Source: a virus
DNA length: 41,134 nt
Virus record (IMG/VR): IMGVR_UViG_3300009285_005078
Span: 1 to 41,134 of that record
Strand: one strand, 5' to 3'
The notes under the pieces are model-generated. The model made no database searches and had not been told where the DNA came from. It saw only the letters and a program-made list of their open reading frames with translations. Of the stretch, positions 1-36,528 are shown in pieces. Positions within the stretch are counted from its first letter, which is position 1, and each line of letters starts with the position of its first letter. A program made the position numbers and the translations under genes.

Positions 1-2
1 TT

Positions 3-860
3 CCCGATCTTTTGGAACGAGGGCTTTATCAGTTTCAAAACTATTACGGTTCCATAAGATGGTCTATTTCTTCCCTCATTATTATTTTTCCAGTTTACGT
101 CTGGGCCGGTTATTATTTAAATAAAATTTATTCTCGCGAACCGGAAAAGCGCAATTTAAGGATTCGCAAGTGGCTCCTAAATTTCACGGTTTTTGCCGCC
201 GCTTTAATTATAATAGGGGATTTGGTAACCCTTATTTACAACTTTTTAGGCGGCGACCTGACAATGCGGTTTGTTCTTAAAATCGCGGCCGTTTTCTTCG
301 TTGCCGCTTCCGTTTTCTTTTATTATTTCTGGGAGTTAAGGGGTTGGGCAACCCGTTCGACAAGCTCAGGGTTAAAAATTTCCGATTCAGCGAGAAAAAT
401 TTTCATCTACGCGGTTATTGCCATCGTGGCGCTCGCGGTGATTGCCGGATTTTTTGTTGTCGGCTCGCCGCAAAGCGAACGCCTGCGTCGTTTTGACGAC
501 CAGAAAGTTTCCGACCTTCAAATTATCCAAGGACAAATAATTTATTACTGGCAAAACAAGGAAAAACTTCCCGGAAAGCTTGACGATTTGAAAGACCCAA
601 TAAGTGGATTTAATCCGGCTAAAGACCCGCAAACCGGCGCCGATTACATCTACGAAGTTAAGGGTAAATTAGAATTTTCGCTTTGCGCCGATTTTAATCT
701 GCCGAGTTTAGAAAGCGGCAAACCCTCTATTGAACTCCCGACATATCCGCCGCAATATTATCCGCGCAGCGATTCCAACTGGAATCACGGTACTGGCTAC
801 GTTTGTTTTGAAAGAAAAATAGATCCGGAACTTTACAGACCAATCCAAAAAGCAAAATAA
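3..860 (+). CDS. DUF5671-like membrane protein with pseudopilin-like C-terminal domain, 5' end cut off
   Basis: The frame is open to the left edge, so the N-terminus is missing; codons before the TTG at 12 still read as protein. Several strongly hydrophobic stretches fill the first half (SSLIIIFPVYVWAGYYL, FTVFAAALIIIGDLVTLIY, a third near FVLKIAAVFFVAASVFFYYF, and IFIYAVIAIVALAVIAGFFVV). A soluble tail follows with RRFDDQKVSDLQIIQGQI, a run of residues like the extracytoplasmic part of type II/IV pseudopilins, then YYWQNKEKLP and a conserved-looking GTGYVCFE near the end. This domain pair is typical of Patescibacteria DUF5671 proteins. The role is unknown; an inner-membrane protein with an external domain is likely. 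A short inverted repeat sits in frame between the halves. It converges with the gene at 908-1285 on a shared terminator. Confidence 0.75.
   Translation, partial: PDLLERGLYQFQNYYGSIRWSISSLIIIFPVYVWAGYYLNKIYSREPEKRNLRIRKWLLNFTVFAAALIIIGDLVTLIYNFLGGDLTMRFVLKIAAVFFVAASVFFYYFWELRGWATRSTSSGLKISDSARKIFIYAVIAIVALAVIAGFFVVGSPQSERLRRFDDQKVSDLQIIQGQIIYYWQNKEKLPGKLDDLKDPISGFNPAKDPQTGADYIYEVKGKLEFSLCADFNLPSLESGKPSIELPTYPPQYYPRSDSNWNHGTGYVCFERKIDPELYRPIQKAK
350..373. repeat. short inverted repeat inserted in frame inside the membrane-protein gene
   Basis: AACCC at 350-354 pairs with GGGTT at 369-373 around GTTCGACAAGCTCA. It encodes a hydrophilic patch (RSTSSG) between two membrane segments. From general knowledge, closely similar TTCGACAAGCTCAGGG units occur as interspersed palindromic repeats in many uncultured bacterial genomes, including CPR. 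Only one copy is visible here. Confidence 0.5.
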
Positions 861-875
861 ACTTCTAAAATGTAA

Positions 876-904
876 AACGCCCTTAAGTAGTACCTAAGGG
901 CGTT
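876..904. terminator. bidirectional intrinsic terminator
   Basis: A perfect 10-bp stem (AACGCCCTTA with TAAGGGCGTT) around a 9-nt loop, with A-rich and T-rich flanks on either side. It lies between the stop codons of two convergent genes (860 and 908) and can serve both. Confidence 0.85.
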
Positions 905-907
905 TGG

Positions 908-1285
908 TTACAAATCCGGCAGTTTTTCGCCACCCGAAAAGGAGACCTTATCAATATATAGTTTCTTTATTTCGCATTTCCCATCCGGCAATTTTTCTTG
1001 TAAGAAAATTATTGGGAAAATATTTTTGCTGACCATATCATGATAGCCAGGAAAAATGTCTTTTCTGACGCAACCGATTATTGTTTTATTTTGTCCGGAC
1101 GAATCGGAAAAGGCGGCGACCAAATAAGTAAAGCTATCAGGCAAAACCGAGTTAAAACTACTGACAACACCAATAGCGGCAGCAAACGATTCGTATGCCG
1201 CTCTGGTAAGAATGCCAACAACTTCATTGAATGATTCTATTGGTATTGCTCCGATAATGTGTTTTATCAACATTATACATATCAA
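908..1285 (-). CDS. hypothetical protein, CPR section
   Basis: An unrecognised protein of about 120 residues. The composition is ordinary for a soluble protein, with alternating hydrophobic residues in the middle (FTYLVAAFSDSSGQNKTIIGCV) and a lysine-rich end (CEIKKLYIDKVSFSGGEKLPDL). No catalytic motif, signal peptide or membrane helix is seen. The start is uncertain: the first methionine is at 1285, but the one four codons later (MLIKHII) is equally possible. A TATAAT-like sequence overlaps this area, so the promoter may be right here. The gene stops three bases from the shared hairpin terminator, which supports it being real. A 64-codon ORF on the opposite strand is regarded as a shadow. 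Confidence 0.55.
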   Translation of the reverse strand: MICIMLIKHIIGAIPIESFNEVVGILTRAAYESFAAAIGVVSSFNSVLPDSFTYLVAAFSDSSGQNKTIIGCVRKDIFPGYHDMVSKNIFPIIFLQEKLPDGKCEIKKLYIDKVSFSGGEKLPDL

Positions 1286-1387
1286 TCAAATAAATTCTTT
1301 AAAAATCTGAAAATCATGCTTGAGGATTTTTTTGTTGGTGCCGTAGACGGCGACGGCGGCGCCTTAGAAGCTGAATTCAAGCTCGCT

Positions 1388-1416
1388 TTGACAGGCCGCG
1401 TAAATTATGGTATATA
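1388..1416 (+). promoter_or_regulatory. sigma70-type promoter of typA
   Basis: TTGACA at 1388-1393, a 17-bp spacer, then TATATA at 1411-1416. This is a near-consensus housekeeping promoter about 37 bp upstream of the typA start, in the gap after the divergent gene at 908-1285. Confidence 0.75.
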
Positions 1417-1452
1417 TTTATAGTAATTGTGCTGGGAAGCCGGCATTTTTTT

Positions 1453-3249
1453 ATGAAAATCAGGAACATCGCCATTATCGCCCATGTTGACCACGGCAAA
1501 ACCGCTTTAACCGACGCTTTGATGCGCCAGACAGGCGCGGTGGAAGAAGGCGTGAGCATGGATTCAAACGCGCTGGAACTGGAGCGCGGTATTACGATTT
1601 ACTCAAAAAATGCCTCTATTTTTTATAAGGATACGAAGATAAACATCGTGGACACTCCGGGCCACGCCGATTTTGGTTCGGAGGTGGAGCGCGTCCTTCG
1701 TTCAATCGATTCTGTTGTTTTGGTGGTGGATGCCCAGGAAGGGCCGATGCCCCAGACCAAATTCGTTTTGAAAAAATCTTTAGAGCTCGGCTTAAAGCCG
1801 ATTGTGGTTATCAATAAAATAGACAAGCCGGCGGCCAGGCCCGATTGGGTCCATGAAAAAGTGCTGGAGCTTTTTATGGATTTGAGAGCGAGTGACAGCC
1901 AGCTCAATTTTTCCACGGTTTACGCCATAGCCAAAGAAGGTGTTGCCAAAAATAAGTTAACCGACGATTCAAAAAATCTTTCGCCGCTTCTTGAAACAAT
2001 ACTCAAAGAAGTTCCGGAAGCGTCTTCGCAGGAGCTAAATCAAAAGCCCTTAAGAATCCAGCCGTTTAATCTGGCCTACGATAATTTTATGGGGCGCCTC
2101 GCCATTGGTCGGATTTACGAAGGAGTTGTTAAAGCGGGTAATGTGTTCGTAAAAAACGCCACTGGCGAGGTAAGGGCGGGAAAAATAAACAAAATTTTCA
2201 CTTTTGAAGGCCTTAAGAGAAAAGAGGTCGTGGAAGCGTCGGCCGGCGACATTATAATGATTGCCGGTCTTTCGGATATTTTTATCGGCGAGACGGTTTG
2301 TGCCGATCCCAATCAGAACGCCTTGCCGGCCATCAACATCGACGAGCCGACGATATCGCTTAATTTTTTGGTCAACAATTCGCCGTTTGCCGGTTGCGAA
2401 GGCAAATTTGTCACGAGCCGCCAACTGCGGGAGAGATTGGAGCGGGAGCTCGAAGTGAACGTCGGGTTAAAAATTGATTTTTCGGCGGGGGATTATTTTA
2501 AAGTTTACGGCCGGGGCGAATTGCATATCGCGATACTTCTCGAAAACATGAGGCGCGAGGGCTATGAGCTCCAGGTGTCCAAGCCCCAGGTTATTTTTAA
2601 AGAAGATTCTTCGGGAAAGACACTAGAGCCGTTTGAAGAAGTTGTCGTAGATGTTCCGAACACCATGTCCGGCTCGGTTATTGAAAGATTATCAAAAAGA
2701 AAAGGCGCGATGGCGAGCATCGAGCCCGACCAGAATCACACGAGATTGGTTTTTGAAATTCCGACGCGGGGACTGTTGGGCTATCGCGGGGAATTCGTGA
2801 TAGAGACGAAGGGCGAAGGCATTATTTACAGCCGGGTAATCGGTTTCCGGCCGTTTGTCGGAGATATTGACCGGCAGGTTTTCGGTTCAATGGTTTCAAT
2901 GGCCGATGGTAAGGCGCTCGGCTATTCACTGTGGAATCTTCAGGAAAGGGGAACGCTTTATATCGGCGCCGGCACCAAGGTTTTTGAAGGCATGGTTATC
3001 GGCAATACCGCGAAAGGCAATGACATGGCTGTAAACCCGACCAAAGGCAAAAATCTTACTAATGTCCGCTCCAAGAGCTCCGATGAAGCGATTACATTAA
3101 CTCCGCCGTTTGAAATCACTCTTGAAAGAGGGCTCGAAATTGTCGGCGACGACGAATATCTAGAGGTGGCGCCAAAAAGCGTCCGCCTAAGAAAACAAGT
3201 TCTCAGCGAACTCAACCGCGTCCGCGTTAAACGCCAGGGCAAGGCCTAA
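1453..3249 (+). CDS. typA: ribosome-associated GTPase TypA/BipA
   Basis: A translational GTPase of the EF-G/LepA group that acts on the 50S subunit and is linked to ribosome assembly and stress growth. All G motifs are visible near the N-terminus: AHVDHGKT (P-loop), ERGITI (switch I), DTPGHADF (switch II) and NKIDKP (guanine specificity). Domain II follows, then EF-G-like domains III and V (GRGELHIAILLENMRREGYE), and the BipA-specific C-terminal domain with GLLGYRGEF, GTKVFEGMVIG and NVRSKSSDEA. At 598 residues it is full length (the family is about 600-610). The ATG at 1453 is chosen because MKIRNIAIIAHVDHGKT matches the family N-terminus; a GTG at 1429 in the same frame adds an atypical extension. 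Standard codon use, AT-rich like its neighbours, with its own promoter and terminator. Confidence 0.97.
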   Translation: MKIRNIAIIAHVDHGKTALTDALMRQTGAVEEGVSMDSNALELERGITIYSKNASIFYKDTKINIVDTPGHADFGSEVERVLRSIDSVVLVVDAQEGPMPQTKFVLKKSLELGLKPIVVINKIDKPAARPDWVHEKVLELFMDLRASDSQLNFSTVYAIAKEGVAKNKLTDDSKNLSPLLETILKEVPEASSQELNQKPLRIQPFNLAYDNFMGRLAIGRIYEGVVKAGNVFVKNATGEVRAGKINKIFTFEGLKRKEVVEASAGDIIMIAGLSDIFIGETVCADPNQNALPAINIDEPTISLNFLVNNSPFAGCEGKFVTSRQLRERLERELEVNVGLKIDFSAGDYFKVYGRGELHIAILLENMRREGYELQVSKPQVIFKEDSSGKTLEPFEEVVVDVPNTMSGSVIERLSKRKGAMASIEPDQNHTRLVFEIPTRGLLGYRGEFVIETKGEGIIYSRVIGFRPFVGDIDRQVFGSMVSMADGKALGYSLWNLQERGTLYIGAGTKVFEGMVIGNTAKGNDMAVNPTKGKNLTNVRSKSSDEAITLTPPFEITLERGLEIVGDDEYLEVAPKSVRLRKQVLSELNRVRVKRQGKA

Positions 3250-3261
3250 AAAATTTTTCAT

Positions 3262-3293
3262 AACAAAAGTCCCGCGTTCGCGGGACTTTTGTT
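3262..3293. terminator. bidirectional intrinsic terminator after typA
   Basis: A 15-bp perfect stem (AACAAAAGTCCCGCG with its complement) around a two-base TT centre, with T-rich sequence on both strands. It lies 13 bp after the typA stop. The stop codon of a convergent minus-strand reading frame (3292-3294) touches its right edge, so it can serve both directions. Confidence 0.92.
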
Positions 3294-3384
3294 ATTTAAT
3301 AAACTCTTTCAAAACCTTAAAAAATCCTGTGCCGGCTTTTTTGAAATGACCGATTTTCGGCTTGTTAAGTTTTGGCTCCGCTTC
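3292..3384 (-). pseudogene. 3' remnant of a convergent CPR gene, cut at the sequence junction
   Basis: On the minus strand an open frame of 30 codons ends with TAA at 3292-3294, right at the typA terminator. Its product is lysine-rich (it ends GTGFFKVLKEFIK) and its base composition matches the CPR section. Going upstream the frame meets TGA at 3385-3387, exactly where the sequence becomes phage-like, so the rest of the gene is missing. I read it as the true C-terminus of a chromosomal gene convergent with typA. The function cannot be told from this fragment. Confidence 0.55.
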
Positions 3385-3391
3385 TCATAAT
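3385..3391. other. junction between CPR chromosome and phage DNA
   Basis: Left of here the DNA is AT-rich, with T and A runs and cellular genes. Right of here it is uniformly GC-rich and carries only phage-type genes on the minus strand. The last phage gene ends with TGA at 3391-3393, and the remnant cellular frame is closed by a TGA at 3385-3387. No recognisable att core, tRNA end or integrase is present at the join. Confidence 0.7.
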
Positions 3392-4149
3392 CACCTCAAT
3401 CCTTCCTGCCCCTTAACCGCCGCCAGTGGCGGCGACTGCGCGTCCGTGTTGGTATACACCGGCTTTCCTGCGTCGAGCGCCGCCCACAGGGTCGTATTGT
3501 TCTCCCGCACCGCCGGGTCGAAATAGAGGGCCACGGCATCACAGTCGGCCAATTCCTTGGCCAGCGCGTCATCCCCGAGATACCCGAGAACGCGCAGGCG
3601 GTCGCCAAAGATGCCGCGCATGGCGGTAATGCTGTCCGTCAATGCGCCATCCCACGGGGAGCCTTCATGGACCGCCGTGGACAGGGCGATGGTGTAGTCT
3701 GGATGCTCCACGTCGAGCCGCGCCTTGAGCGCCGCAAACTGCTCTAGCGCGAGCTTGTGCGCCATGCCGAAGGTCAGGACGCGATACGCGCCGCGACTCG
3801 GGTTGCCCTGAATGGTCGAGGGACACCACGCTTCGATGATGTCGGGGCGAATGGGACGCAGTGCGTCAGCGAGTGCGCGGCTCGCCGCAAAGGCTCGCAC
3901 GGCGTACAAGAGCAGCGGTTCACCCAACGCGCCATGTAGAAAAATATCGAACGGTACGCGCGCGATCAGGATGTTTTCGGGCAACTCAGACGGCTTGATG
4001 GACACCAGTGGATACTGCGCCGCCAACGCCTCGGGTGACCCCAGCCGATAGCACGGCACGCCCAGCCGCGCCGCGAGCTGGTGGTTGAACTTGGCCACCC
4101 CGCACGTCATGGGGTTCATGTGGTACGACAGCACGCAATCGTTCGTCAT
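3391..4149 (-). CDS. GT-B-like glycosyltransferase, phage
   Basis: A protein of 252 residues. The start (VLSYHMNPMTCGVAKFNHQLA, with CGVAKF matching the CGIAxY opening of GT4-type enzymes) and the end (DCDAVALYFDPA..NNTTLWAALDAGKPVYTN, like the sugar-nucleotide region of GT-B C-domains) both suggest a compact GT-B glycosyltransferase. It is shorter than a usual GT-B enzyme (350-400), so it may be reduced or may not be catalytic. The start overlaps the stop of the nucleotidyltransferase-methyltransferase gene by four bases (ATGA), which implies coupled translation and a shared pathway. It is the last phage gene before the junction, and its stop is three bases from the cellular piece, so the C-terminus is probably intact. 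Acceptor and donor are unknown. Confidence 0.55.
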   Translation of the reverse strand: MTNDCVLSYHMNPMTCGVAKFNHQLAARLGVPCYRLGSPEALAAQYPLVSIKPSELPENILIARVPFDIFLHGALGEPLLLYAVRAFAASRALADALRPIRPDIIEAWCPSTIQGNPSRGAYRVLTFGMAHKLALEQFAALKARLDVEHPDYTIALSTAVHEGSPWDGALTDSITAMRGIFGDRLRVLGYLGDDALAKELADCDAVALYFDPAVRENNTTLWAALDAGKPVYTNTDAQSPPLAAVKGQEGLR

Positions 4150-5138
4150 ACCTCGAACACCAATACCCGCCCCAGCCCCTTCCAGTCCATCTTAGCCTCC
4201 AGGTCCGGGCGGCTCTTGCAGCCGTGCAGCACGAACAGCGCGCGCAGCAAATCCTTTGTGGCAAACGTGATTTCGGTCGGGTCAATCTCGCGGTGGCCGT
4301 CAGTCGTCACGTCCAGCAGATGCGCCGGGTTCGGATGAAAGCGCGTCGTGAGGTAGATGTAGCGACTAGAGTGAGCGACAAGCGAACGAATCAGTTTTTC
4401 CCATTCACTGAGTGGCACATGCTCAAAGACTTCTCGGCACACCACCAGCGGGGTCACGTGTGCGTCGTTAAACCAGTTATCGTCCAAAACGAAATAATGG
4501 TCCGTCGTGACGTGCGGCTCATAACCAAACGCCTTCAACCCCAGTTCTCGCAGCATGGTCACCAGATGGCCCAGACCGCACCCGTAGTCAAGCACGCCTG
4601 ACGGTTCAAACACGTCCTTGATGAGTTGCGCGTGCGGCCCCTCAATCCCCCGTCGAGCCTCCAGGCTGTAGTCCGTCGTCGGCACCCACGGCTGCTGCGG
4701 CGGCTGTGTCTGGATGAACCGTTCCAGCGCCGCCACGGCTCGCCCATCGGCCCGGCGCTGGTAGTCGGCTAGAAGCGCCGATGAGGACGCCATGCGCGTG
4801 TCGAGGTAGCGAATCTCGGCTTTCACTTCCCGGCACGCAGTCACCACGTCCAAGGGCAGGCGGTCCCGCCACTCCTCGCCCTTCACGAGGAAGTCCGGCT
4901 TGATCACATGGATCGCGTTCGCCAGCGGCCCAATTCGCACGCTATGCACCGCATGGAGTCCGGCAATGACCGCAGCCCGCCGCGCTTCCAGCAGGAACAC
5001 CGGATGCTTCTGTTCGACCACACTATCTGGCGCGACGTTGACGATCAGGATGCCGAGGCGGGCGGCTTCATGCAGGTAGGCGACGTGCCCGTGATGCAGC
5101 GGATCGAACGTGCCATCGGCCAACACGACTGGAGTCAT
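4146..5138 (-). CDS. bifunctional cytidylyltransferase-like / SAM-dependent methyltransferase fusion
   Basis: Two domains in 330 residues. Residues 1 to about 130 are a nucleotidyltransferase of the cytidylyltransferase superfamily: ADGTFDPLHHGH carries the HxGH active site at 15-18, with KPDFLVKGEEW at 80-90 and a RMASSSAL segment at 115-122 in the place of the family's C-terminal ST motif. It resembles RfaE C-domain, TagD and glycerol-3-phosphate cytidylyltransferases. Residues about 150-330 are a class I methyltransferase with motif I VLDYGCGLGHLV (182-193) and REVFEHVPLSEWEKLI later, as in Methyltransf_23. Known family chemistry would be activation of a sugar- or polyol-phosphate with CTP plus a methyl transfer; the substrate here is inferred only. 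It is coupled (ATGA) to the GT-like gene downstream and preceded by a conserved 29-bp element. Confidence 0.75.
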   Translation of the reverse strand: MTPVVLADGTFDPLHHGHVAYLHEAARLGILIVNVAPDSVVEQKHPVFLLEARRAAVIAGLHAVHSVRIGPLANAIHVIKPDFLVKGEEWRDRLPLDVVTACREVKAEIRYLDTRMASSSALLADYQRRADGRAVAALERFIQTQPPQQPWVPTTDYSLEARRGIEGPHAQLIKDVFEPSGVLDYGCGLGHLVTMLRELGLKAFGYEPHVTTDHYFVLDDNWFNDAHVTPLVVCREVFEHVPLSEWEKLIRSLVAHSSRYIYLTTRFHPNPAHLLDVTTDGHREIDPTEITFATKDLLRALFVLHGCKSRPDLEAKMDWKGLGRVLVFEV

Positions 5139-5153
5139 GCCTGCTCGTATATG

Positions 5154-5182
5154 CCGACGTATCCCTTCCGGCTGTCAAGCCC
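5154..5182 (-). promoter_or_regulatory. conserved 29-bp intergenic element, copy 1
   Basis: On the coding strand it opens GGGCTTGAC and ends AAGGGATACGTCGG after six variable bases. 25 of 29 positions match the copy at 10706-10734. It overlaps the stop codon of the upstream methyltransferase gene and ends 15 bp before the next start codon. TTGACA (5173-5178) is a perfect -35 hexamer and TATACG follows at 5146-5151, but the 21-bp spacing is too long for sigma70. A phage promoter or operator is inferred. Confidence 0.45.
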
Positions 5183-5858
5183 CACAACTCGCGCGAATGA
5201 CCGCGAGCCCCGTCACCGTCTTGTCGTCCCGCCACGCTCGCGCCCCGCCGATGGTGCGGTCGGCTACTCGCCAGCCGTCCGTCTCCCGGGCGTAACAGCA
5301 GACCCGCACCGTCGCCGGCTGGAGCATCTGGCCGATCCGCTCGATGTCCTCGGACCCGAACGCCCGCCACTTCCCGCCTGGATGGGCTTCCGGCCGACCA
5401 TACGGCACGCTGATCACCAGCGCCCCCTTGCAGACCCGCCGCAACTCGCTCACCGCGCGCCACACGGAGTCCGGAGCGGCCTCGGCCGAATGGCCATAGT
5501 GCCGGTTATCCATCCCGACATGTTCCAGCGTGGAGATGCACAGGACGCACGGGAAGGCCCGATCCGGAAAGGGCAGCGTGCGGAGGTCCGCCACGACGTA
5601 CTGCCGGCGGCGATGGCTGTACACCCGCTCCTGGCCGAGCGTGACGTGGACGTACGTGGAGGGCGTCCACTGGTGAAGATTGGGGATGTTCAGGGCGCAG
5701 CCAGCATCCAAGACGAGGGGGGACCAGACGGCAATCGCCAACGCGAGCGGGACTTCAAGGCACCGCTCGTTTTCAGTCGGGTTGAACTTTGGCGGCAGGG
5801 GCACACCCCACTGCACGGGACTGCCGGGGCCAACCGTAATCTCCATCGTCTTAGCCAT
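5175..5858 (-). CDS. class I SAM-dependent methyltransferase
   Basis: 227 residues with a Rossmann methyltransferase pattern: motif I LVLDAGCALNIPNL, a post-I strand, VVADLRTLPFPDRAFPCVLCISTLEHVGM (motifs II to IV, with the LPF...F...L.ISTLEH arrangement typical of Methyltransf_11), and VSELRRVCKGALVISVPYG (motif V). The glycine-rich loop is degenerate (GCALN instead of GxGxG), as in several glycan-linked methyltransferases. It ends at the conserved 29-bp element and lies next to the nucleotidyltransferase and glycosyltransferase genes, so a role in making or capping a modified sugar is a reasonable inference; a small-molecule or protein substrate is also possible. It starts with ATG inside the last codons of the small membrane-protein gene. 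Confidence 0.7.
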   Translation of the reverse strand: MAKTMEITVGPGSPVQWGVPLPPKFNPTENERCLEVPLALAIAVWSPLVLDAGCALNIPNLHQWTPSTYVHVTLGQERVYSHRRRQYVVADLRTLPFPDRAFPCVLCISTLEHVGMDNRHYGHSAEAAPDSVWRAVSELRRVCKGALVISVPYGRPEAHPGGKWRAFGSEDIERIGQMLQPATVRVCCYARETDGWRVADRTIGGARAWRDDKTVTGLAVIRASCGA

Positions 5859-6102
5859 ACCACCAGCGCGTCAGCGCCATCCCGGTCACGGTGCCCACGC
5901 CCGCCCCGAAACCATAGACCGCCCAGCCCCACGGCTTATCCTTGTGCGCCGCCGCGCCGGCATTGCTCCACCAGACGGCCGAAATGGCGAAGCCAATCCC
6001 GCCCGCCCCGATGTAATGGCCGCCGCTCACTTGCACCACGTTCGCGGCTGTCAGGGCCACAATCAGGAAGCCGCGCCAGAAGATGCGGACGTAGTCAGTC
6101 AC
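5851..6102 (-). CDS. small membrane protein, two hydrophobic segments
   Basis: 83 residues. Two hydrophobic stretches are visible: residues about 9-24 (WRGFLIVALTAANVVQV) and 30-48 (IGAGGIGFAISAVWWSNAG), then a glycine-rich, weakly hydrophobic end (WGWAVYGFGAGVGTVTGMAL). Probably an inner-membrane protein. The GTG start overlaps the stop of the DNA methyltransferase gene (GTGA), and the end overlaps the next gene by eight bases, so it sits inside a translationally coupled operon. It could be a second holin-like protein, but it is far from the endolysin and no family was recognised. Confidence 0.6.
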   Translation of the reverse strand: MTDYVRIFWRGFLIVALTAANVVQVSGGHYIGAGGIGFAISAVWWSNAGAAAHKDKPWGWAVYGFGAGVGTVTGMALTRWWYG

Positions 6103-6779
6103 AGTAGCCCAGCCTGTGCCGGTTCTGGCTTTGGCGGCTCCAGTGGGAGGACTTCCTGCGCGAGTCTCTTGGCGGCAATCTCGCAGTAGCGTTCTTCGAT
6201 CTCGATGCCAATGGCCTTCCGGCCCAGTTGCTTGGCAGCACGAAGCGTCGTTCCCGTGCCGAGAAACGGATCAACCACTGTCGCACCAGCGGGAGCCAGT
6301 AACCCAACAAGGCGAACCATCACGCCCTCTGCTGTTGTCCCTGGGTGCCCGTAGGATTCGCCGTCGTACAAATACCCTTCGTCGGGAAGCCGTATTCCGT
6401 CCCAGAGGTTCGAGACAGATTTAGCTGGCTTCCCACGAACCAACAGCAACAGAAATTGATCGGACCATCCGAACCGAATTGGACCCTGCGCGCGGCGTTG
6501 AACGACGACCGGATGCGCGTCATTTCCAAGAATGCTCGTAAATCGCGCCAGTTGAACCGTAGGCGTCACCCAACCCTGAACAGAACACGAACCAGCCACC
6601 AACATTAAAAGCTCGTTGTACTCCTCGTCGCTCATGTCGTCCCGGTGAACGCCATAATTCTTCCCGACATTGAACGGCGGGTCAGTCACTACGGTATCAG
6701 GCGACAAGGCCGGCAGGATGTCCCGGCAGTCGCCGTGATAAATCGTGATGCCCGCGTGTTCGTAATAGGGCTTAATCAA
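6099..6779 (-). CDS. beta-class site-specific DNA methyltransferase (adenine-N6 or cytosine-N4)
   Basis: 226 residues. The catalytic motif IV, TDPPF, comes first (residues 32-36), preceded by ITIYHGDCRDIL. The SAM-binding motif I, DPFLGTGTT, comes near the C-terminus (170-178), followed by GRKAIGIEIEERYCEIAAKRL. This order defines the beta class. DPPF is usual in N6-adenine and N4-cytosine enzymes and the target base cannot be settled by eye. The start is taken as TTG at 6779, because GGAGG lies 9 bases upstream and the protein then opens with the family-like PYYEHAGITIYHGD. The frame extends to 6863, but that part reads as a shadow of the upstream gene. No restriction enzyme gene is adjacent, so an orphan methyltransferase (self-protection or regulation) is likely. 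Confidence 0.88.
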   Translation of the reverse strand: MIKPYYEHAGITIYHGDCRDILPALSPDTVVTDPPFNVGKNYGVHRDDMSDEEYNELLMLVAGSCSVQGWVTPTVQLARFTSILGNDAHPVVVQRRAQGPIRFGWSDQFLLLLVRGKPAKSVSNLWDGIRLPDEGYLYDGESYGHPGTTAEGVMVRLVGLLAPAGATVVDPFLGTGTTLRAAKQLGRKAIGIEIEERYCEIAAKRLAQEVLPLEPPKPEPAQAGLL

Positions 6780-7131
6780 CCGGCTGGTCCTCCAGAATCG
6801 CCCGGAGCCGCTTGGCTGCGTCCGCAACGCGATCCTCCATGTCCAGCGGGTCCAGCGTTTCACATTCTAGAATCTGGATCACCCCCCGCAACTGCTCGCG
6901 CAGCGTGTGGCCGTACACGATGGCGTCAAGGTGTTCCTGTTCCAGGCGGGCCACCATTCCCGACTTCTCCCACAGCCGCCCCCCGTGTTCCGCCTGCCCC
7001 GTCCGATACTTGCCCTGAAGCGCCGCCGTCGTGTCCTTGACGATGCGCGCGAGATGTGCCTCTGACGCGCTTGCGCTGGCGCGTGACGGCTTGCTGATAC
7101 TCGGTGTAGAACGCCCTGATTTCTGCATCAC
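6772..7131 (-). CDS. small phage protein, MazG-like appearance
   Basis: Up to 119 residues; the convincing part starts near residue 25 (AHLARIVKDTTAALQ) and includes KYRTGQAEHGGRLWEK, then LEQEHLDAIVYGHTLREQL. That pattern recurs in small phage proteins that look like all-helical MazG-type nucleotide pyrophosphohydrolases (acidic HExLD..VY helix), but I cannot name the family with certainty. The first 25 residues (Ser/Ala/Arg-rich) look like frame shadow, no start codon exists between 7128 and the convincing region, and no ribosome site precedes the GTG/ATG at 7131/7128. Either translation depends on coupling with the overlapping gene, or an indel separates the two (see findings). Its TAA overlaps the TTG start of the DNA methyltransferase. 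Confidence 0.6.
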   Translation of the reverse strand: MMQKSGRSTPSISKPSRASASASEAHLARIVKDTTAALQGKYRTGQAEHGGRLWEKSGMVARLEQEHLDAIVYGHTLREQLRGVIQILECETLDPLDMEDRVADAAKRLRAILEDQPVD

Positions 7132-7380: not shown

Positions 7381-8841
7381 CTATGGCGTATAGGTCGTGT
7401 CCAGCGAGGTCGCCCCGCCCTTCCAGAGCACAAGCGGCCCCAAGTAGCCCAGCTCCAGCAACCGCCGCCGCATCTCGATATGCTGCTGCACGTCGCCCAC
7501 CACCCGCGCCCGCGTCGCCTCCAGGCCTGACGGCGTGAGCCGATTCGCGTCCCGCCAGAGCTGCTGGTTCATCTTGACCTTTTCGTGCGCCAGCCCGAGC
7601 ATGGCCCCGATGTTCTCCTGTGAGTTCGACAGCCCTTGGCGCCTGATGAAGTCGAGCTTGGTATCCTGCGTCAGCTTGTCGCCCAGCGGCGGCAGGCCGT
7701 ATTCGGTCATGGCCCCGTTAATCACGGGCAGGTCGTAGCTATTGTGGACAGCAAAACCTTCGGCGATATAGGTGTGCGTGGACGTAGAAAGACCGGCGAC
7801 CTCTCGCTGCCCGACATCCCGAAGGCCGACCACGCGGACCATTTTGATTTGCCGTAGCGCCTGCATTGACGGATAATCGACCCATCGCTTGAGAAGCCGT
7901 TGGGGCCGAACCTGTCCAAGAAACCGAAGCGCATCGTTAATGCCACCATTAACCCGAAGCGATTGCGCCCTGATCGCGCTTGATCGTCGGCCGACGACCG
8001 CCGACACAAAACCGTAGCGGTGTAGCGCGTCTACGGCGTACTGAAGGGTTGGGCCTGGATTTTGTGCGGCAGTAATCTGTAACGCTTGTCCGGCCGATCC
8101 AGATCGGCCAAGCGTCCCTTCGCCATCAAAAAACCCGGCCAGCCATCCGGCTTCTCGGGTGTCAATCGACCTCCACGGGTCAACGACCTGATAAAGCCAG
8201 ACCGGCCTCCGTGCAAATCTGTTTGGTTGAATTGCCGAAGAACCAAGCAGTTCGTCGGTTCGCCGCCAATGAAACCGCATTGCGTTTCTGTCGTTCCGCG
8301 TTCCAACCAGCCACGGATGTTCGGCGGTGGCATAAAGCGTTTGGCCAGACTCCAAGTCCACGGCATAGGTGCGCTCGCAGCGTGGTTCGTTCGACACAAC
8401 CTCTGCAAACCTGATCCGCCGCCCCCGGCGTGGCGCTCCGTGTTCGTCAAATGCTACGAGACGGTCGCCCGGCACGAGGTCGCCAGCGCAAACCCAACGT
8501 AGATCAGCCGTGAGCACGCGTGTTTCAGGCACCACGCACCGGATGAAATGCCCCGTCACCATGTCGGCATAATCGTAGGCCCAACGAAACAGCGTCAGCA
8601 TGAACACGGCGTCTGTTTCGCCCAGCAAGTGACAATGCACATCGTCGGGCGTGTCGGTCCATGCCCACGCAATCGCGGTGATTTCCTTGCTGACGTAGTC
8701 GCTGCTGATCCAGTGGAGCGGCCGGGCTTCGACGTCGAAGTCCAACACACGCATCGGGCGCGACGGAATGACGACATGGGCGGGCGCCAGTACCAGATCG
8801 CCCGGTTCAGGCGTCAATCTTGGTCGAATCAGGATGCGCAT
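7381..8841 (-). CDS. DEDD-family 3'-5' exonuclease interrupted by an intein
   Basis: Numbering here is from the alternative TTG at 8850. The extein is an RNase H-like exonuclease related to the proofreading domain of family B polymerases: Exo I LDFDVE (D39, E41); Exo II split by the intein, TGHFIR before and SYDLPVING after (D373); then DTKLDFIRR and NIGAMLGL; an Exo III candidate VVGDVQQHIEM (D453), where the usual tyrosine four residues earlier is arginine. The intein covers residues 105-370. After splicing about 220 residues remain, a normal length for a standalone exonuclease. ATG at 8841 is preferred; the frame also contains TTG at 8850 and an ATG at codon 33 just before the Exo I motif. 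No polymerase gene was seen in the window, so the role may be phage replication or repair with a host polymerase. Confidence 0.82.
   Translation of the reverse strand: MRILIRPRLTPEPGDLVLAPAHVVIPSRPMRVLDFDVEARPLHWISSDYVSKEITAIAWAWTDTPDDVHCHLLGETDAVFMLTLFRWAYDYADMVTGHFIRCVVPETRVLTADLRWVCAGDLVPGDRLVAFDEHGAPRRGRRIRFAEVVSNEPRCERTYAVDLESGQTLYATAEHPWLVGTRNDRNAMRFHWRRTDELLGSSAIQPNRFARRPVWLYQVVDPWRSIDTREAGWLAGFFDGEGTLGRSGSAGQALQITAAQNPGPTLQYAVDALHRYGFVSAVVGRRSSAIRAQSLRVNGGINDALRFLGQVRPQRLLKRWVDYPSMQALRQIKMVRVVGLRDVGQREVAGLSTSTHTYIAEGFAVHNSYDLPVINGAMTEYGLPPLGDKLTQDTKLDFIRRQGLSNSQENIGAMLGLAHEKVKMNQQLWRDANRLTPSGLEATRARVVGDVQQHIEMRRRLLELGYLGPLVLWKGGATSLDTTYTP
7741..8538 (-). mobile_element. intein with LAGLIDADG homing endonuclease domain
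   Basis: 266 residues in frame, from Cys1 to the terminal Asn. Block A is CVVPETRVLTADLRW with GDLVPGDRL after it. Block B is TLYATAEHPWLV (TAEH contains the catalytic Thr and His). One LAGLIDADG helix is clear, GWLAGFFDGEGTL. Block F is VVGLRDVGQREVAGLS, and block G is THTYIAEGFAVHN followed by Ser as the +1 nucleophile. Removing it rejoins TGHFIR to SYDLPVING, restoring a continuous Exo II motif. Only one LAGLIDADG motif is obvious, although the domain is long enough for a degenerate second one. GC content matches the phage, so it is not a very recent arrival. Confidence 0.92.
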
Positions 8842-9037
8842 CGTCCACAATCTGAAGGTCGAAGGCCGTCCCTTCGGCCAGTCCGAGCACCGAGCGGCCG
8901 GACTTCAGGGCCTCGATTTCGGGAAGCAGGACGTCCTCCTCGAAATCAATGGACTCAAACCGCTGTTTGAGGCGGAACTGCGCCCGACGCAGCGCTTTGA
9001 GTTTGCGCTCTTGCCTGCTGTCTCTGCTTAAGCTCAT
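8807..9037 (-). CDS. small hypothetical phage protein
   Basis: 76 residues: a basic helix-forming start (RQERKLKALRRAQFRLKQRF) and an acidic second half (FEEDVLLPEIEALKSG). No family recognised. It overlaps the preceding gene by 83 bases and the exonuclease by about 35. A GAGAG seven bases before the ATG is a fair ribosome site. Possibly a nucleic-acid-binding or adaptor protein, but that is a guess from charge alone. Confidence 0.45.
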   Translation of the reverse strand: MSLSRDSRQERKLKALRRAQFRLKQRFESIDFEEDVLLPEIEALKSGRSVLGLAEGTAFDLQIVDDAHPDSTKIDA

Positions 9038-9325: not shown

Positions 9326-9589
9326 TTAGCCCTTGATCAGCACGTCCACTCGGCCGCTGAACTGCCGCGTCCCGATGTGCCCCGCCAGTTCCCCGCGCAA
9401 TTCGACGTGATCGCCCACACGCACGACCGCGCCCAGGTGGATGGTGCCGTTCAGTTCGGCTGAGCCCACAAGCGCGAACCGCTCGCCGTCCTGAAGCATC
9501 TGCCCTACGCTCTGCTCGATAGCCTTCCGCGTGGCCGCGTGCAAATCGAATCCAGACGGCAGCAACGCCAGCGTGTCATCGTCAAGCAT
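9326..9589 (-). CDS. hypothetical phage protein, beta-rich C-terminus
   Basis: 87 residues. After a short helix-like N-terminus (LHAATRKAIEQSVGQMLQDGER) comes a beta pattern: FALVGSAELNGTIHLGAVVRVGDHVELRGELAGHIG. No family recognised. The start codon overlaps the stop of the DUF1353 gene (TAATG), so translation is coupled. Confidence 0.55.
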   Translation of the reverse strand: MLDDDTLALLPSGFDLHAATRKAIEQSVGQMLQDGERFALVGSAELNGTIHLGAVVRVGDHVELRGELAGHIGTRQFSGRVDVLIKG

Positions 9590-10053
9590 TACGCCTCCAC
9601 AAGTTCATGCGCCCGCATGGGCGTGTCCACAGCCACGGGCAGTCCAGCCGGACGCCACGCCACATCATGCTGGTGGAAAAAATGCCGCGCGCCCACGGCC
9701 AAGCCGGCATTCACCATCCACCGCACAAAGCGATTCGGCGGGCGCGGCGAGTCCTCCATGGCGTCCTTTATGAGTTGATTCGCGGCCTTCGCGCACGCAA
9801 ACACCGGCACCGAATCCGTGCGGAAGGCGTAGTCGTGCAACACGGCCGCGTAGTTGTACTTCCCAAAGCTCGGGAGGAACCAGCGAAAGGGCGGCGGGAT
9901 GCTGGCGTAGTCCGTCACGAATCCCGGCGGCACCACGAGAATCCACCCATCGCGCATCTGGTAGGCGAACGGCCAAACCAAGATGGCGTGGCGGCCGTTG
10001 CCGGCGTCGCGGGTGACGAGCGGCGATAGGAATGGATCGTCACTCGCTCTCAC
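9589..10053 (-). CDS. DUF1353 family phage protein
   Basis: 154 residues. The DUF1353 signature is clear: PPGFVTDYASIPPPFRWFLP followed by YNYAAVLHDYAFR. Family members occur in many tailed phages, often near lysis genes; the molecular role is unknown. The start is GTG at 10053, overlapping the TGA of the gene upstream (GTGA), with GGGAGCC a few bases before. The open frame runs further upstream to 10431, but that part is an Arg/Gly-rich shadow of the preceding gene. Confidence 0.85.
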   Translation of the reverse strand: MRASDDPFLSPLVTRDAGNGRHAILVWPFAYQMRDGWILVVPPGFVTDYASIPPPFRWFLPSFGKYNYAAVLHDYAFRTDSVPVFACAKAANQLIKDAMEDSPRPPNRFVRWMVNAGLAVGARHFFHQHDVAWRPAGLPVAVDTPMRAHELVEA

Positions 10054-10496
10054 TTCCAGGCTCCCAGGTGCCGCCCGAGTGCATCCAGTCGCACGGATAG
10101 GTTGATCACCATCGCCACCAGCGGATCGTCGTGCGGCGGGTCGGGCGTGGGCGGATCGGGCGTGGGTGGGGCAGGCGTGAGCCAGTCCTTGGCTTCGACC
10201 ACGCGGAACTCGTGACCGTCCAGGTTCAGCGTCTCGGGGTTGCTGTTCAGATAGGCGGAGGGACCGCCGGCACTCACCACAATGTCCCAGCCGTACTTCC
10301 GCCCCCCGGCTTCCACGCCCACCACGTCCTCGCGGCCCTGCGGGTGCGGAAAGTAGCCCCAATGCACGCCCGGCTCTTTGAGTCGAATCTGCTGGGCGGA
10401 CCGCCGCGTGAGTTCCCCCACTTGGGGCCACTGGGAGAGGTCAAACTTGAACTTGGCTTGCAGAGCGTGAACGATGTCGCTGTGTTCAAAATTCAT
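10050..10496 (-). CDS. hypothetical phage protein with Pro-Asp repeat linker
   Basis: 148 residues. The first 100 form a compact domain (HSDIVHALQAKFKFDLSQW, later KYGWDIVVSAGG). A proline-rich linker PPTPDPPTPDPP follows, then a C-terminal helix (LVAMVINLSVRLDALGRHL). The domain-linker-helix layout fits a virion- or lysis-associated protein, but no family is recognised. Start and stop overlap the neighbours by four bases each (ATGA, GTGA). Confidence 0.6.
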   Translation of the reverse strand: MNFEHSDIVHALQAKFKFDLSQWPQVGELTRRSAQQIRLKEPGVHWGYFPHPQGREDVVGVEAGGRKYGWDIVVSAGGPSAYLNSNPETLNLDGHEFRVVEAKDWLTPAPPTPDPPTPDPPHDDPLVAMVINLSVRLDALGRHLGAWK

Positions 10497-13453: not shown

Positions 13454-14931
13454 CGTACGACCGTCCCGCTGATCGTGCCGTCCGGGTTGACCTTCGTCAC
13501 GCGCACCTTCCGTCCCTTCACCGTCACAATGTCCCCGACCTTCGGACCGCCGGCAGCGGCGGGCGCGTCTATCTCACCACCCGGCGAGGATTTCAGATCG
13601 GACGCTGAAAAGATGAGATCCGGATCGATGCCAAACGCTGACGCCGTTTTCTCGATCCGTTCGCGTTCTGCCGCCATGTTGTCTGACAGCCCGTCCATAA
13701 AGGCCTGCGCCGTGTTGACAAACTGCTCCAGGTCCGCGATCGGCACGCCCGCGCCGCCGCTCGCCATGCGGGTCGCCTCGCCCTCCATCCTCGACAGCAG
13801 GGACACGCCCTCTGACGACCGCGCATATTCCGACTCTCGGACCACGCTAGTCGGATCAAGAATCTTCTGGAACGTGACAAGCACGGCCTGCGACCCGGCG
13901 TTCAAATCGCCCGCCTTGGCCCGCTCAATGCCCCTCTGCATCAGCGTGAACTGACGCTGCATTTCTCGTGCGGATGCAATCGCCTTGCGCCAATCGCCCT
14001 GGAGCGCCCGCACGTCTGCCAACGCGGCGCTTCGCTGTGGCACGGGCGCACGGGCGGCATCAGCGAGTTGATCCTTGGCTTGCCGCCTGATTTCTGCCCG
14101 CCGTGCCCGCGTCACCGGCTTCCCCGTTGCCTCTTCTTCGGCCGCGACAAGATCAGCCACTTGTCGCTCAAGGTCGGAACCCGCCCCACCGCTGGCCGGC
14201 TCCGGGTCGCGGAACAGCGTCGTCTGCCCGGTTTCATCGTCCAGCAGGAACCCGAGTTGATACGCCGCGTCCTTGTACTGGCTCTGCTTCAGCAGCCCAA
14301 TCGCCGCCTCGTCATCCTTGACCTGCCGCAGGATGCGCGTGATCGCCGGCGCCATCGGCGCGAAATCCTTGACGGCTGGCGGGGTCATGCGCGCCCGCTC
14401 CACAATCGAGCCGGGCATGTAGGCTTCGCCAAACTCCTGCGCCAACTGCTGATCCGCCGACGCGACGCGCGACTTGAACGCCTCGGGCTCGGTGATGCCC
14501 TCCAATTCCTTGAGCAGATTCGTAAGACGCGCTTCGGCTGCGTTCTTCAGCCGGAGCGACCGATCCTGTGCCTGCCCTTCCGACGCCACGCGCCGGCTTT
14601 CGGCGGACTCGTCCAGCTGCCGCTCATAGAGCCGCTGCTGGTTCTCCTCCAGCTTGCGGCGCTCGTCCATCTGCTGCGCGCGCTGCCAGCCTTCCAGAAA
14701 CGCGGCCTTCGCACCTTGGTTCCGCGCGAAGATCAGCGGGAGCAACTGCAAGAGTTGCTTCGGATCGAACGCACCCGCACCACCGCCACCGCCTGCCACG
14801 ACGCCTGCGGGGGTGCCCGCCAGGGAGGGAGGCGGGGGGAGTGCGCCGGCCATCGGAGACGACGGCAGCGGCGCGGGTGTCTCGGTGGGGTCAAACAGCC
14901 CCGCAAACGGCCGCGACGAAAAGTCAGGCAT
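13450..14931 (-). CDS. virion-associated protein with coiled coil, probable internal/ejection protein
   Basis: 493 residues. A Pro/Gly-rich, low-complexity start (about 1-55, with a polyglycine run) precedes a strongly charged coiled coil (about 75-125, WQRAQQMDERRKLEENQQR). A helical body follows, and the C-terminal 30 residues form a small beta domain (VGDIVTVKGRKVRVTKVNPDGTI) like a KOW/SH3-type strand set. Predicted as the middle protein of a three-gene internal-core set. No catalytic motif was recognised. Ends overlap both neighbours by one to four bases. Confidence 0.6.
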   Translation of the reverse strand: MPDFSSRPFAGLFDPTETPAPLPSSPMAGALPPPPSLAGTPAGVVAGGGGGAGAFDPKQLLQLLPLIFARNQGAKAAFLEGWQRAQQMDERRKLEENQQRLYERQLDESAESRRVASEGQAQDRSLRLKNAAEARLTNLLKELEGITEPEAFKSRVASADQQLAQEFGEAYMPGSIVERARMTPPAVKDFAPMAPAITRILRQVKDDEAAIGLLKQSQYKDAAYQLGFLLDDETGQTTLFRDPEPASGGAGSDLERQVADLVAAEEEATGKPVTRARRAEIRRQAKDQLADAARAPVPQRSAALADVRALQGDWRKAIASAREMQRQFTLMQRGIERAKAGDLNAGSQAVLVTFQKILDPTSVVRESEYARSSEGVSLLSRMEGEATRMASGGAGVPIADLEQFVNTAQAFMDGLSDNMAAERERIEKTASAFGIDPDLIFSASDLKSSPGGEIDAPAAAGGPKVGDIVTVKGRKVRVTKVNPDGTISGTVVR

Positions 14932-29653: not shown

Positions 29654-29946
29654 TCATCCTCCACAATGCCCAAAATCTCATCCTGCGTGAGCACGAGATA
29701 CGTCACCCCGTCATACGTTGCTTCGCTGCCCTGATTTGGCGCGAAACAGACGCGATCCCCCACCTTCAGATCGCTCCGCATGGCCCCGCCGCACTCCTCA
29801 CAACGTGGCCCCGGCCCAAGAAACGCCACCGTGCCGCTCATGGGCACATGATCGTCGCTGCTGACGAGCACCAACCCGGATTCGGTCACCTCGTCAGGCT
29901 CATCCGGCAGCACCAACACGCGGTCACCGATGGGTGTCAGGCTCAC
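29650..29946 (-). CDS. phage GroES-like co-chaperonin with a CxxC insertion
   Basis: 98 residues. The GroES (Cpn10) pattern is clear: TPIGDRVLVLPDEP at the start, a mobile-loop region (EVTESGLVLVSSDDHVP), then MSGTVAFLGPG, LKVGDRVCFAPNQGSEATYDGVTYLVL and the C-terminal DEILGIVED. An insertion between two strands carries RCEECGG (C49, C52), a possible metal or redox site that ordinary GroES lacks. Phage GroES homologues, such as T4 gp31, act with the host GroEL to fold the capsid protein; the place between portal and scaffold genes fits that role. No GroEL is encoded. Overlaps both neighbours by four bases. Confidence 0.9.
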   Translation of the reverse strand: MSLTPIGDRVLVLPDEPDEVTESGLVLVSSDDHVPMSGTVAFLGPGPRCEECGGAMRSDLKVGDRVCFAPNQGSEATYDGVTYLVLTQDEILGIVEDE

Positions 29947-34998: not shown

Positions 34999-35309
34999 TC
35001 GCCCGTGAGCCTCGCTTCTTCTTCCGCCGTAAGCGTTTGCGGCAACTTGACGTATCCAATTGGCTCGCCAGCCGCATCAACCCGCATTTCACGCCAAAAC
35101 ACCACATCGCCGAGGCCGTAGTAACGCCCAAAGAAATCATCCCTTCGGTCCCACCTGGGCGCACAAGATTTGCAATATCGAACCGTCTGGCGATTCACGA
35201 TGCGATCCTCGCCACCAACCCAACCCAGGATGTGATGGCACTGATTGCATTCAAACGTTTCCGGCATGGGCTTCTCCAGCTTCTCCAGCTTGCGAAACCA
35301 TCCCATCAC
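34995..35309 (-). CDS. zinc-binding hypothetical protein
   Basis: 104 residues. [22 protein letters not shown] holds two CxxC pairs in zinc-ribbon spacing. [23 protein letters not shown] follows, then an acidic helix ([11 protein letters not shown]). Unrecognised. In frame overlap of four bases with both neighbours. Confidence 0.55.
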
Positions 35310-36259
35310 AGCACCCCCCTGAGCCTCGCCTCATCGTCCACCTTGACCACGTAGAACGGCACATTCCCCGCTCGCGCAAGCCGTTGACTGACCTCTAGAT
35401 GCACCGGCAGCGTCCCTTCCCAGGTCGAGTAGTAGCCCACGCTGGGAATGCCCATCAAGAGCGCCATCTGCTGCATCCCGCCATACGTGCCGACAAATTG
35501 CTTCGCTCGGCCGAGAATGGCCCCTTGCACCGCAAAGCTCTCCTCCAGCGTAATCGCGTCCCGCACCCGAATCAGGTTCGGATGGTCCGGCAGCGCGAAG
35601 CCGTAGTGATCATCGGCAATCTCCGGCGGCTCCAAGGCCACAACTGGCCCGCGCCCGCACAGCCGGCGCATGGTGGCCCGAACCCAGTGCAGGACTTGCC
35701 CCGTATGCGGCAAGGTGGCCCGCGAGTAGAACCGCACGGCCGTGAAGTGCTCGGGCAGCGTCACGTCTGCCGGCAGCGGTGGGGCGGCCAGCCGCGTAAA
35801 GCGCAGATGGTCAAACAGTTCCCTTGGCGCGGCTTTCTCGTGCCACGCCTCGTTGAACGCCGCAAACATCAGGCCGGGATGCAAGACCTCAACCTTCAGC
35901 CGCAGGTCATACTCCGCGCCCTGAATCAGCTCGCGATCGAAGGCGGTTAACTCGCGCTGTTTGAGGCTTTGGTTGATCGACCAGTCCAGCGTGTTCGCGG
36001 TACGAAGTTCCTGCAAGGTGCGGAGTTTGTAGAGTTCCACGCCCATCGGGACTTTGTAGAAAATGCCGGCCCCGCCTCGACTGGCCACAATCAGCCGCTC
36101 AGGCGCGACGTGGTACTGCTCGCGCACCCAGCGCACGAAGGGCACCCAGTACAGCAACTCAAAGCCGAGTTCCTGCCGGAACGGCCCAATAAGAATCTTC
36201 CGCGCCGTCTGCGCGCAGATGGCTTCAATCTGCTGCTGCCATGTCGCCGTGTCACTCAT
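35306..36259 (-). CDS. glycosyltransferase-like protein
   Basis: 317 residues from ATG 36259 (GGAG nine bases before). LIGPFRQELGFELLYWVPFVRWV at the start, then RLIVASRGGAGIFYK, and in the C-domain NLIRVRDAITLEESFAVQGAILGRAKQFVGTYGGMQQMALLMGIPSVGYYS, a pattern (AKQFVGTYGG..QMALLMG.PS) of GT-B-like enzymes such as the fucosyl/polysaccharide-pyruvyl groups, where the surveyed site binds the nucleotide sugar. Donor and acceptor unknown. Together with the 3.4-5.9 kb genes it gives the phage at least two glycan-type proteins. An upstream extension to 36463 is a shadow of another gene. Confidence 0.65.
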   Translation of the reverse strand: MSDTATWQQQIEAICAQTARKILIGPFRQELGFELLYWVPFVRWVREQYHVAPERLIVASRGGAGIFYKVPMGVELYKLRTLQELRTANTLDWSINQSLKQRELTAFDRELIQGAEYDLRLKVEVLHPGLMFAAFNEAWHEKAAPRELFDHLRFTRLAAPPLPADVTLPEHFTAVRFYSRATLPHTGQVLHWVRATMRRLCGRGPVVALEPPEIADDHYGFALPDHPNLIRVRDAITLEESFAVQGAILGRAKQFVGTYGGMQQMALLMGIPSVGYYSTWEGTLPVHLEVSQRLARAGNVPFYVVKVDDEARLRGVL

Positions 36260-36285
36260 GCCTACTGTCTCCGTAATGGCCAAGA

Positions 36286-36528
36286 CTAGTCTAGACTGTT
36301 TAATTGCCCACAAATAGGACATACCACGCGAGTCGAGCCGCGCCGTTCTAGCAGAGCCCCGCTCGGATACCGTTGCGTATAATAGGCCGCAAACACATAC
36401 CCGCGAGTTCCGCAACACCAACTCATCCACGCCCGCCGACGGTACTGAAACCGCCAATGGCATCGTTCGTCATGGTAATTTCTATGCAAAAGCCGTTCGG
36501 CTTGGTCGATAGAAAGCGCTTTACTCAT
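36286..36528 (-). CDS. small zinc-finger-like protein, lower GC
   Basis: 80 residues. Aromatic and Arg-rich middle (CHWRFQYRRRAWMSWCCGTRGYVFAAYY), ending STRVVCPICGQLNSLD with a CxxC. Strong ribosome site GGAGG six bases before ATG. A and T are more frequent than in the surrounding phage genes, suggesting separate origin. Function unknown. Confidence 0.6.
   Translation of the reverse strand: MSKALSIDQAERLLHRNYHDERCHWRFQYRRRAWMSWCCGTRGYVFAAYYTQRYPSGALLERRGSTRVVCPICGQLNSLD

Follow-up and report, generated by a model that had tools for sequence, protein, structure and literature searches.

A nucleotidyltransferase-methyltransferase and GT-B gene cassette of an uncultured phage as a candidate part of a nonulosonic-acid glycan operon

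The gene cassette and its proteins

The IMG/VR virus record IMGVR_UViG_3300009285_005078, 41,134 bases long (the window), carries a tailed phage sequence with terminase, portal, GroES-like and major capsid genes. The phage sequence extends from about position 3400 onwards, with minus-strand genes and a guanine-cytosine (GC) content of 0.53-0.72, while bases 1-3250 hold plus-strand bacterial genes (for a DUF5671 protein and TypA) at a GC content of 0.39-0.50. At the start of the phage sequence lies a cassette for a nucleotidyltransferase (NT) fused to a methyltransferase (MT), a GT-B-fold protein (GT) and a separate methyltransferase, which the initial annotation, made from the sequence alone, had put forward as the best candidate in the window for an undescribed modification system. 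The open reading frames were found on the minus strand where they had been placed:

4146..5138, minus strand: NT-MT fusion, 330 amino acids (aa), identified from Pfam, NCBIfam, a structure model and conservation
3391..4149, minus strand: GT-B-fold protein, 252 aa, identified from model fold and conservation, starting within the ATGA stop of the fusion gene
5175..5858, minus strand: separate methyltransferase (PF08241), 36 bp upstream of the fusion gene

The fusion protein consists of an HxGH nucleotidyltransferase of the HldC/TagD/Fom1-CyTase type (residues 1-130) and a class I S-adenosylmethionine methyltransferase (residues 149-330). Both domains were above the Pfam cut-offs: PF01467 (CTP_transf_like) matched residues 6-97 with an E value of 2.5e-10 (41.1 bits, cut-off 21), and PF13489 (Methyltransf_23) matched residues 176-265 with an E value of 3.7e-10 (40.2 bits, cut-off 27). 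The motifs HHGH, SSS and DYGCG (motif I) are at residues 15, 118 and 184, respectively. Besides HxGH, the NT domain retains the other active-site residues D38, K44, R54 and SS[ST]; in an alignment of 12 sequences D38 and R54 were invariant and K44, S118 and S119 were kept in at least 90 %. A model based on an alignment of 12 relatives (mean pLDDT 84.3) was compared with known structures by VIA-align. Residues 1-118 matched the Fom1 cytidylyltransferase domain (5x3d; Z 16.8, 118 residues, root mean square deviation (rmsd) 2.0), and the NT model also matched TagD (Z 15.6-15.7) and HldC (5xf2, Z 15.5). Residues 149-330 matched small-molecule methyltransferases with Z values of about 14, for example 5hij (Z 14.2, 176 residues, rmsd 3.2).

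The NT domain shares the fold, the HxGH motif, the D/K/R positions and SS[ST] with HldC, HldE domain II, TagD and the Fom1 CyTase (PF01467), but differs from these in being fused to a methyltransferase and in staying below every specific NCBIfam equivalog cut-off. The best NCBIfam model was TIGR02199 (rfaE_dom_II, the heptose-1-phosphate adenylyltransferase domain; 2.4e-14), and the fusion did not reach its HldE/HldC equivalog cut-off (53.4 bits, cut-off 181.5). A profile match to ECT was also obtained (6e-20).

The ATGA overlap between the fusion gene and the gene at 3391-4149 was confirmed, as was the GT-B-like character of the second product. This protein has no sequence match in Pfam, PHROG or the PDB. 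Its model, based on 25 sequences (pLDDT 89.7), has a GT-B fold with two Rossmann-like domains, and the top Foldseek match was SenB (8e-8). VIA-align with HMW1C gave Z values of 11.5-11.9, mostly over residues 118-246, and the C-terminal domain matched HMW1C with Z 11.5 (122 residues, rmsd 2.9). The rmsd of the whole-chain alignments was 15-19, probably because the orientation of the domains in the model differs. The protein shares the two-domain fold and the nucleotide-binding C-terminal domain with GT4-type GT-B enzymes (SenB, PimA, BshA). It differs from them in the absence of a Pfam or PDB sequence match, in having only about 240-340 aa in the family and in the absence of the GT4 EX7E motif, for which, by a correspondence drawn by eye, invariant A224 takes the position of the second Glu and position 216 is Ala in many sequences.

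The separate methyltransferase has a PF08241 (Methyltransf_11) domain with an E value of 2.9e-6, above the cut-off, as the initial annotation had anticipated. Clear homologues were present in three of 17 other records tested (G018, G031, G036) and in none of the three beside the fusion, so this gene is an inconstant partner of the cassette.

The wider operon in phages and bacteria

Relatives were found in IMG/VR with degenerate patterns for KMDWKxxGR and CGVAKFN, followed by scans with the alignments of both proteins; single-protein scans of IMG/VR with the fusion or the GT found nothing. A tblastn search of 50,697 phage records gave three weak matches to the NT only and none to the GT, and thus no catalogued phage with the cassette was found.

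The GT gene was present in 24 other viral contigs, one of which (L087) starts inside it and some of which may be near-copies of each other. Nearly all have NT and MT genes, or substitutes for them, adjoining. In 22 of the 24 the GT gene is followed by NeuB, a nonulosonic acid synthase, the two contigs without it being short (4.3 and 6.8 kb). After NeuB there is almost always a cupin gene and then a CTP_transf_3 gene for a NeuA/PseF-like, i.e. CMP-nonulosonate (CMP, cytidine monophosphate), synthetase. The full order in the relatives is therefore NT - MT (fused or separate) - GT - NeuB - cupin - NeuA. Acidobacteria and some phages have NT and MT fused; in most phages they are encoded by two separate genes that often overlap. 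When the search was begun from the fusion alignment instead, the GT adjoined in 20 of 21 loci, so that the linkage does not stem from the way the relatives were searched for; homologues always unlinked to transferases, which the initial annotation would have taken as its refutation, are not what was found. The conservation of GT with NT and/or MT neighbours is far beyond chance, and the grouping of NT, MT and GT-B transferase proposed in the initial annotation is thus a conserved one, which recurs in roughly two dozen other viral contigs and at 14 loci of bacteria.

NeuB of the relatives matched PF03102 (7.9e-67) and the synthetase matched CTP_transf_3 (1.8e-22). The NCBIfam matches, NeuB_NnaB (1.6e-67) and PseF (9.4e-31), were both below the equivalog cut-offs, and none of the relatives scanned reached the NeuB, PseI or PseF cut-off. 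NeuB of L069 (11611-12537, about 308 aa) covers only positions 1-280 of the 329 in the NeuB model, and phage NeuB of this type may lack the C-terminal domain; NeuB of L068 and L092 has 352-356 aa. Two contigs, L110 (IMGVR_UViG_3300010403_000518) and L114 (3300018084_000267), contain rearranged cassettes with MT and GT on the same strand and NT inverted after GT, and no NeuB was seen in them. The closest relative by terminase (L002/G001) has no fusion, GT, NeuB or c3, the last being a family described below.

The GT gene was also found at 14 chromosomal loci, ten of them from metagenome-assembled genomes of Acidobacteriota, three from Rokuibacteriota and one from a metagenome-assembled genome labelled Deltaproteobacteria. 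The ten Acidobacteriota loci and the Deltaproteobacteria locus have NT-MT or MT upstream and NeuB downstream, and the ten also have NeuA; the gene order in these acidobacterial glycan clusters is that of the phages, with other genes replacing the cupin. The bacterial homologues stand among GT2, GT4, GT9, sugar O-methyltransferase-like and ABC exporter genes. At the one locus annotated in detail (L092) the neighbours are glycosyltransferases, a sugar O-methyltransferase-like gene, a short-chain dehydrogenase/reductase, an aldehyde dehydrogenase and a transketolase. In a tree of the GT, all bacterial sequences were on one side of a branch (99/97), with phage L065 next, on a long branch. These comparisons indicate that the cassette shares ancestry with bacterial glycan clusters.

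The three Rokubacteria loci have the order DegT aminotransferase - NT - GT, followed in L100 by GT9 - GT4 - ABC exporter, and in the phages L078 and L084 a DegT aminotransferase likewise takes the place of the MT. This swap, in which an aminating enzyme takes over from a methylating one, is the strongest hint of a sugar being modified in the middle step. It also bears on another reading of the cassette, namely a decoration with a cytidine diphosphate (CDP)-activated, methylated amino-alcohol or polyol, similar to phosphocholine or glycerol phosphate, in which the NT would act like TagD or a phosphoethanolamine/phosphocholine cytidylyltransferase and the MT like a phosphoethanolamine N-methyltransferase. 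The NT fold indeed matches TagD, ECT, CCT and Fom1, with ECT also recovered by profile, and the MT fold matches phosphoethanolamine and glycine-sarcosine N-methyltransferases. Fold similarity does not fix the substrate, however; the best NCBIfam model, though below its cut-off, is that of heptose-1-phosphate adenylyltransferase, and a sugar agrees better both with the GT-B partner and with the sugar aminotransferase that can replace the MT. We consider such a decoration improbable.

An additional gene family without annotation, c3, is associated with the cassette and in the window lies apart from it:

35306..36463, minus strand: c3, unannotated family, just upstream of the terminase gene (A5 profile match 4.8e-125)
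32766-34268: terminase gene
29659-30042, minus strand: GroES-like gene, adjoining the portal gene and present also in relatives (32 % to the GroES of L069)

All seven of the other cassette-bearing records searched contain c3 and none of five cassette-free records does, although three of these five are short fragments, so that it is chiefly G001 and G005 that support the absence. Bacterial c3 genes are found in the same clusters, and in L092 (4541-6811) c3 shares a single reading frame with a GT2 domain at the N terminus. It has no PDB sequence match, and c3 is probably a glycan enzyme. The idea that c3 is a distant copy of the GT was rejected (hhalign probability 3.8). In those of the records with a free-standing operon that were checked (G013, G015, G028), c3 immediately precedes the terminase gene. 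The window is arranged likewise: c3 is upstream of its terminase gene, and the cassette lies at the opposite end, past the late genes.

Comparison of the sister phages L082 and L083 shows that the cassette diverges more rapidly than the surrounding head genes. Their head-gene DNA is mostly 88-100 % identical (portal 90-100 %, one terminase stretch 75 %), whereas identity drops to 69-76 % for the MT part, to about 72 % for the N-terminal half of the GT and to 62-79 % for the NeuA region. In GT-B enzymes the acceptor is usually bound by the N-terminal domain, and the divergence of this half fits, but does not show, a glycan under pressure to vary. The region after the capsid genes of the same two phages (14100-15600) is only 45-55 % identical despite the near-identical head genes.

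Proposed function and acceptor

It is our interpretation, held with a probability of roughly 0.55, that the three genes of the window are the 5' part of a phage-borne operon for the synthesis and transfer of a glycan with a nonulosonic acid, a sialic-acid-like sugar, which most likely modifies the host surface. The domain identities and folds of the window proteins, the order of the operon, its co-occurrence and the shared bacterial ancestry are observed; every substrate, acceptor and benefit named below is inferred from gene content. The HldC/TagD-like domain would activate a phosphorylated small sugar or polyol with a nucleotide, and the MT domain would methylate the activated compound or the glycan, a step that the DegT-type aminotransferase would fill in some relatives. 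From phosphoenolpyruvate and a hexose-type sugar provided by the host, NeuB would form a nonulosonic acid by condensation, and the NeuA/PseF-like enzyme would activate this acid with cytidine triphosphate. The GT-B protein, and probably c3 too, would then transfer the products onto an acceptor glycan. The acceptor would most likely be a glycan of the host-cell surface, similar to a lipopolysaccharide core or a capsule, and its alteration would modify the receptor used by the phage or keep other phages out.

Two observations favour the host surface: the homologues in bacteria belong to cellular glycan clusters, and in some phages the operon occupies the position of conversion genes. It adjoins an integrase-like gene in L072 (PF00589), L102 and L115, the latter two by similarity to the L072 gene, and in L063 it is beside an HTH_3 repressor-type gene. 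The initial annotation had named phage DNA, virion proteins and the host surface as possible targets; the first of these is not supported, and the virion is the main rival of the host surface. According to this rival the pathway is the same and the phage capsid or tail bears the methylated nonulosonic-acid glycan. In most relatives the whole operon is inside the head module, between the portal/GroES-like genes and the capsid gene, and c3 keeps its place next to the terminase gene also where the other operon genes are located elsewhere. Three relatives, on the other side, have the operon beside the integrase-like gene and away from the head genes, and in bacteria the homologues, among them c3, belong to cellular glycan clusters where no phage protein was seen among the genes scanned. 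A virion acceptor is less likely than the host surface, with perhaps half its weight. We regard as rather unlikely a further variant, in which a largely self-contained phage system of the NT-MT, the GT-B protein without a GT4 signature and c3 builds a new methylated nonulosonic-acid glycan and places it on the virion, either in addition to the host or in its stead, with joint variation of both partners in phage recognition as the result.

Several observations weigh against the host-surface interpretation or parts of it. The position among head genes in most relatives fits glycosylation of the virion equally well, and no integrase was found in ten of 13 cassette-bearing relatives by a PF00589 search, which misses at least the integrase-like gene of G015. 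The phage cassettes showed no upstream enzymes for hexose precursors. All 25 GT sequences have Ala where the GT4 EX7E motif has its second Glu, and NeuB, the cupin and NeuA are all absent from the window record itself.

Hypermodification of phage DNA or nucleotides has a possible partner in a DNA methylase gene about 1 kb upstream of the fusion:

6099..6863, minus strand: N4/N6 DNA methylase (PF01555 7.4e-21, phrog_67), upstream
5851..6102, minus strand: small protein, 83 aa (phrog_6764, function unknown), between the DNA methylase and the separate methyltransferase

The methylase is an ordinary phage gene that need not belong to the cassette. No linked partner of nucleotide metabolism was seen, and the homologues occur in bacterial glycan clusters and accompany NeuB and NeuA. 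Since in relatives the cassette continues into NeuB, cupin and NeuA and is common to such clusters, glycan chemistry is preferred, and we give the modification of DNA hardly any credence.

Phages are known to act on nonulosonic acids. Acinetobacter prophages do so by EpaA/EpaB (PMC12053666), and O-acetyltransferases of Acinetobacter prophages modify a nonulosonic acid (PMC6586298). These systems resemble the operon in that phage genes act on the nonulosonic acid of a host surface polysaccharide. By their description they modify an acid made by the host, whereas the relatives described here encode the synthase and the CMP-activating enzyme together with NT, MT and GT. The serotype-conversion (gtr) cassettes of Shigella and Salmonella phages are short operons next to int-attP that alter a surface glycan (PMC3851460), and the position of the operon by the integrase-like gene in L072, L102 and L115 may be comparable; the phage part of the window stops short of this region. 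The operon differs from gtr in having a GT-B protein and sugar biosynthesis genes instead of GtrA/GtrB-type genes; no Pfam match to the GtrA flippase or the GtrB bactoprenol glucosyltransferase was found among the cassette genes of the window or the L068 and L069 operon genes scanned. As in the biosynthesis of nonulosonic acids by NeuB-NeuA or PseI-PseF, NeuB and NeuA/PseF-like enzymes directly follow in the relatives, but in the phages a cupin is between them and no early enzymes of the NeuC or Pse/Leg type were seen.

No description of phage-borne NeuB operons of this kind was found in the open-access literature with a limited set of search terms. To call this an undescribed modification system is nevertheless too strong: surface-glycan modification by phages, including that of nonulosonic acids, is already known (PMC12053666, PMC3851460), and the novelty lies in the gene set and in two unannotated families defined here, those of the GT-B protein and of c3. 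If the host-surface or the virion interpretation is correct, about two dozen uncultured phages carry the late enzymes of a nonulosonic acid glycan and not only an enzyme that decorates it. Lysogenic conversion or glycosylation of virions would then reach to phages with glycan genes akin to those of Acidobacteria and Rokubacteria, for which few viruses are known.

The join in the record and neighbouring genes

The cassette of the window ends close to a junction:

3250..3440, no strand: join of the high-GC phage genome to bacterial DNA of low GC with TypA and its terminator, at the place where NeuB, cupin and NeuA would be expected, identified from the GC step, the loss of homology and the absence of NeuB

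From 3400 to 3250 the GC content falls from about 0.65 to 0.33-0.38, and third-position GC is 0.44-0.56 in the bacterial part and 0.65-0.89 in the phage part. At the DNA level, the similarity of the GT gene to L064 and L072 stops at 3430-3440. The contrast in third-position GC and the end of homology make a chimera, in which phage DNA has been joined to bacterial DNA near 3391-3440, the most likely nature of the record, and a true prophage boundary is not favoured. The window GT is without the C-terminal W..L motif that nine other phage GTs of the first alignment have. This, together with the stop of homology at 3430-3440 and the GC drop, suggests that the 3' end of the gene, encoding the last 15 residues or so, was probably lost to the join.

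No NeuB was found in the record, in a search whose controls worked, as the record here runs into the low-GC bacterial DNA with TypA, a segment that may be Patescibacteria-like. The phage part is 37.7 kb, compared with 46-49 kb for the longest relatives. The simplest reading of these sequence data is that NeuB, the cupin and NeuA would have been lost at the join together with the remaining phage DNA. The missing C-terminal motif of the GT could also be taken to mean that the genes are decayed, non-functional cargo at the edge of a prophage. However, the active-site motifs of NT and MT are intact, the relatives are intact, and the break coincides with the change in composition and the loss of homology, as is typical of a join; decay is therefore very unlikely.

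A perfect 7-bp inverted repeat (CGCCGCC AGT GGCGGCG) is located near the homology break, in the region 1-3440 of the window. Further into the phage part, the minus-strand gene at 7381-8850 encodes an exonuclease-like protein (phrog_403 match at 368-435) that is apparently interrupted by an intein. The putative intein starts with CVVPETRVLT, ends with VHN/S and contains a LAGLIDADG_3 domain. The gene at 9589-10431, also on the minus strand, encodes a DUF1353 protein that matches in addition phrog_1158, a PHROG family named tail assembly chaperone (7.1e-17).

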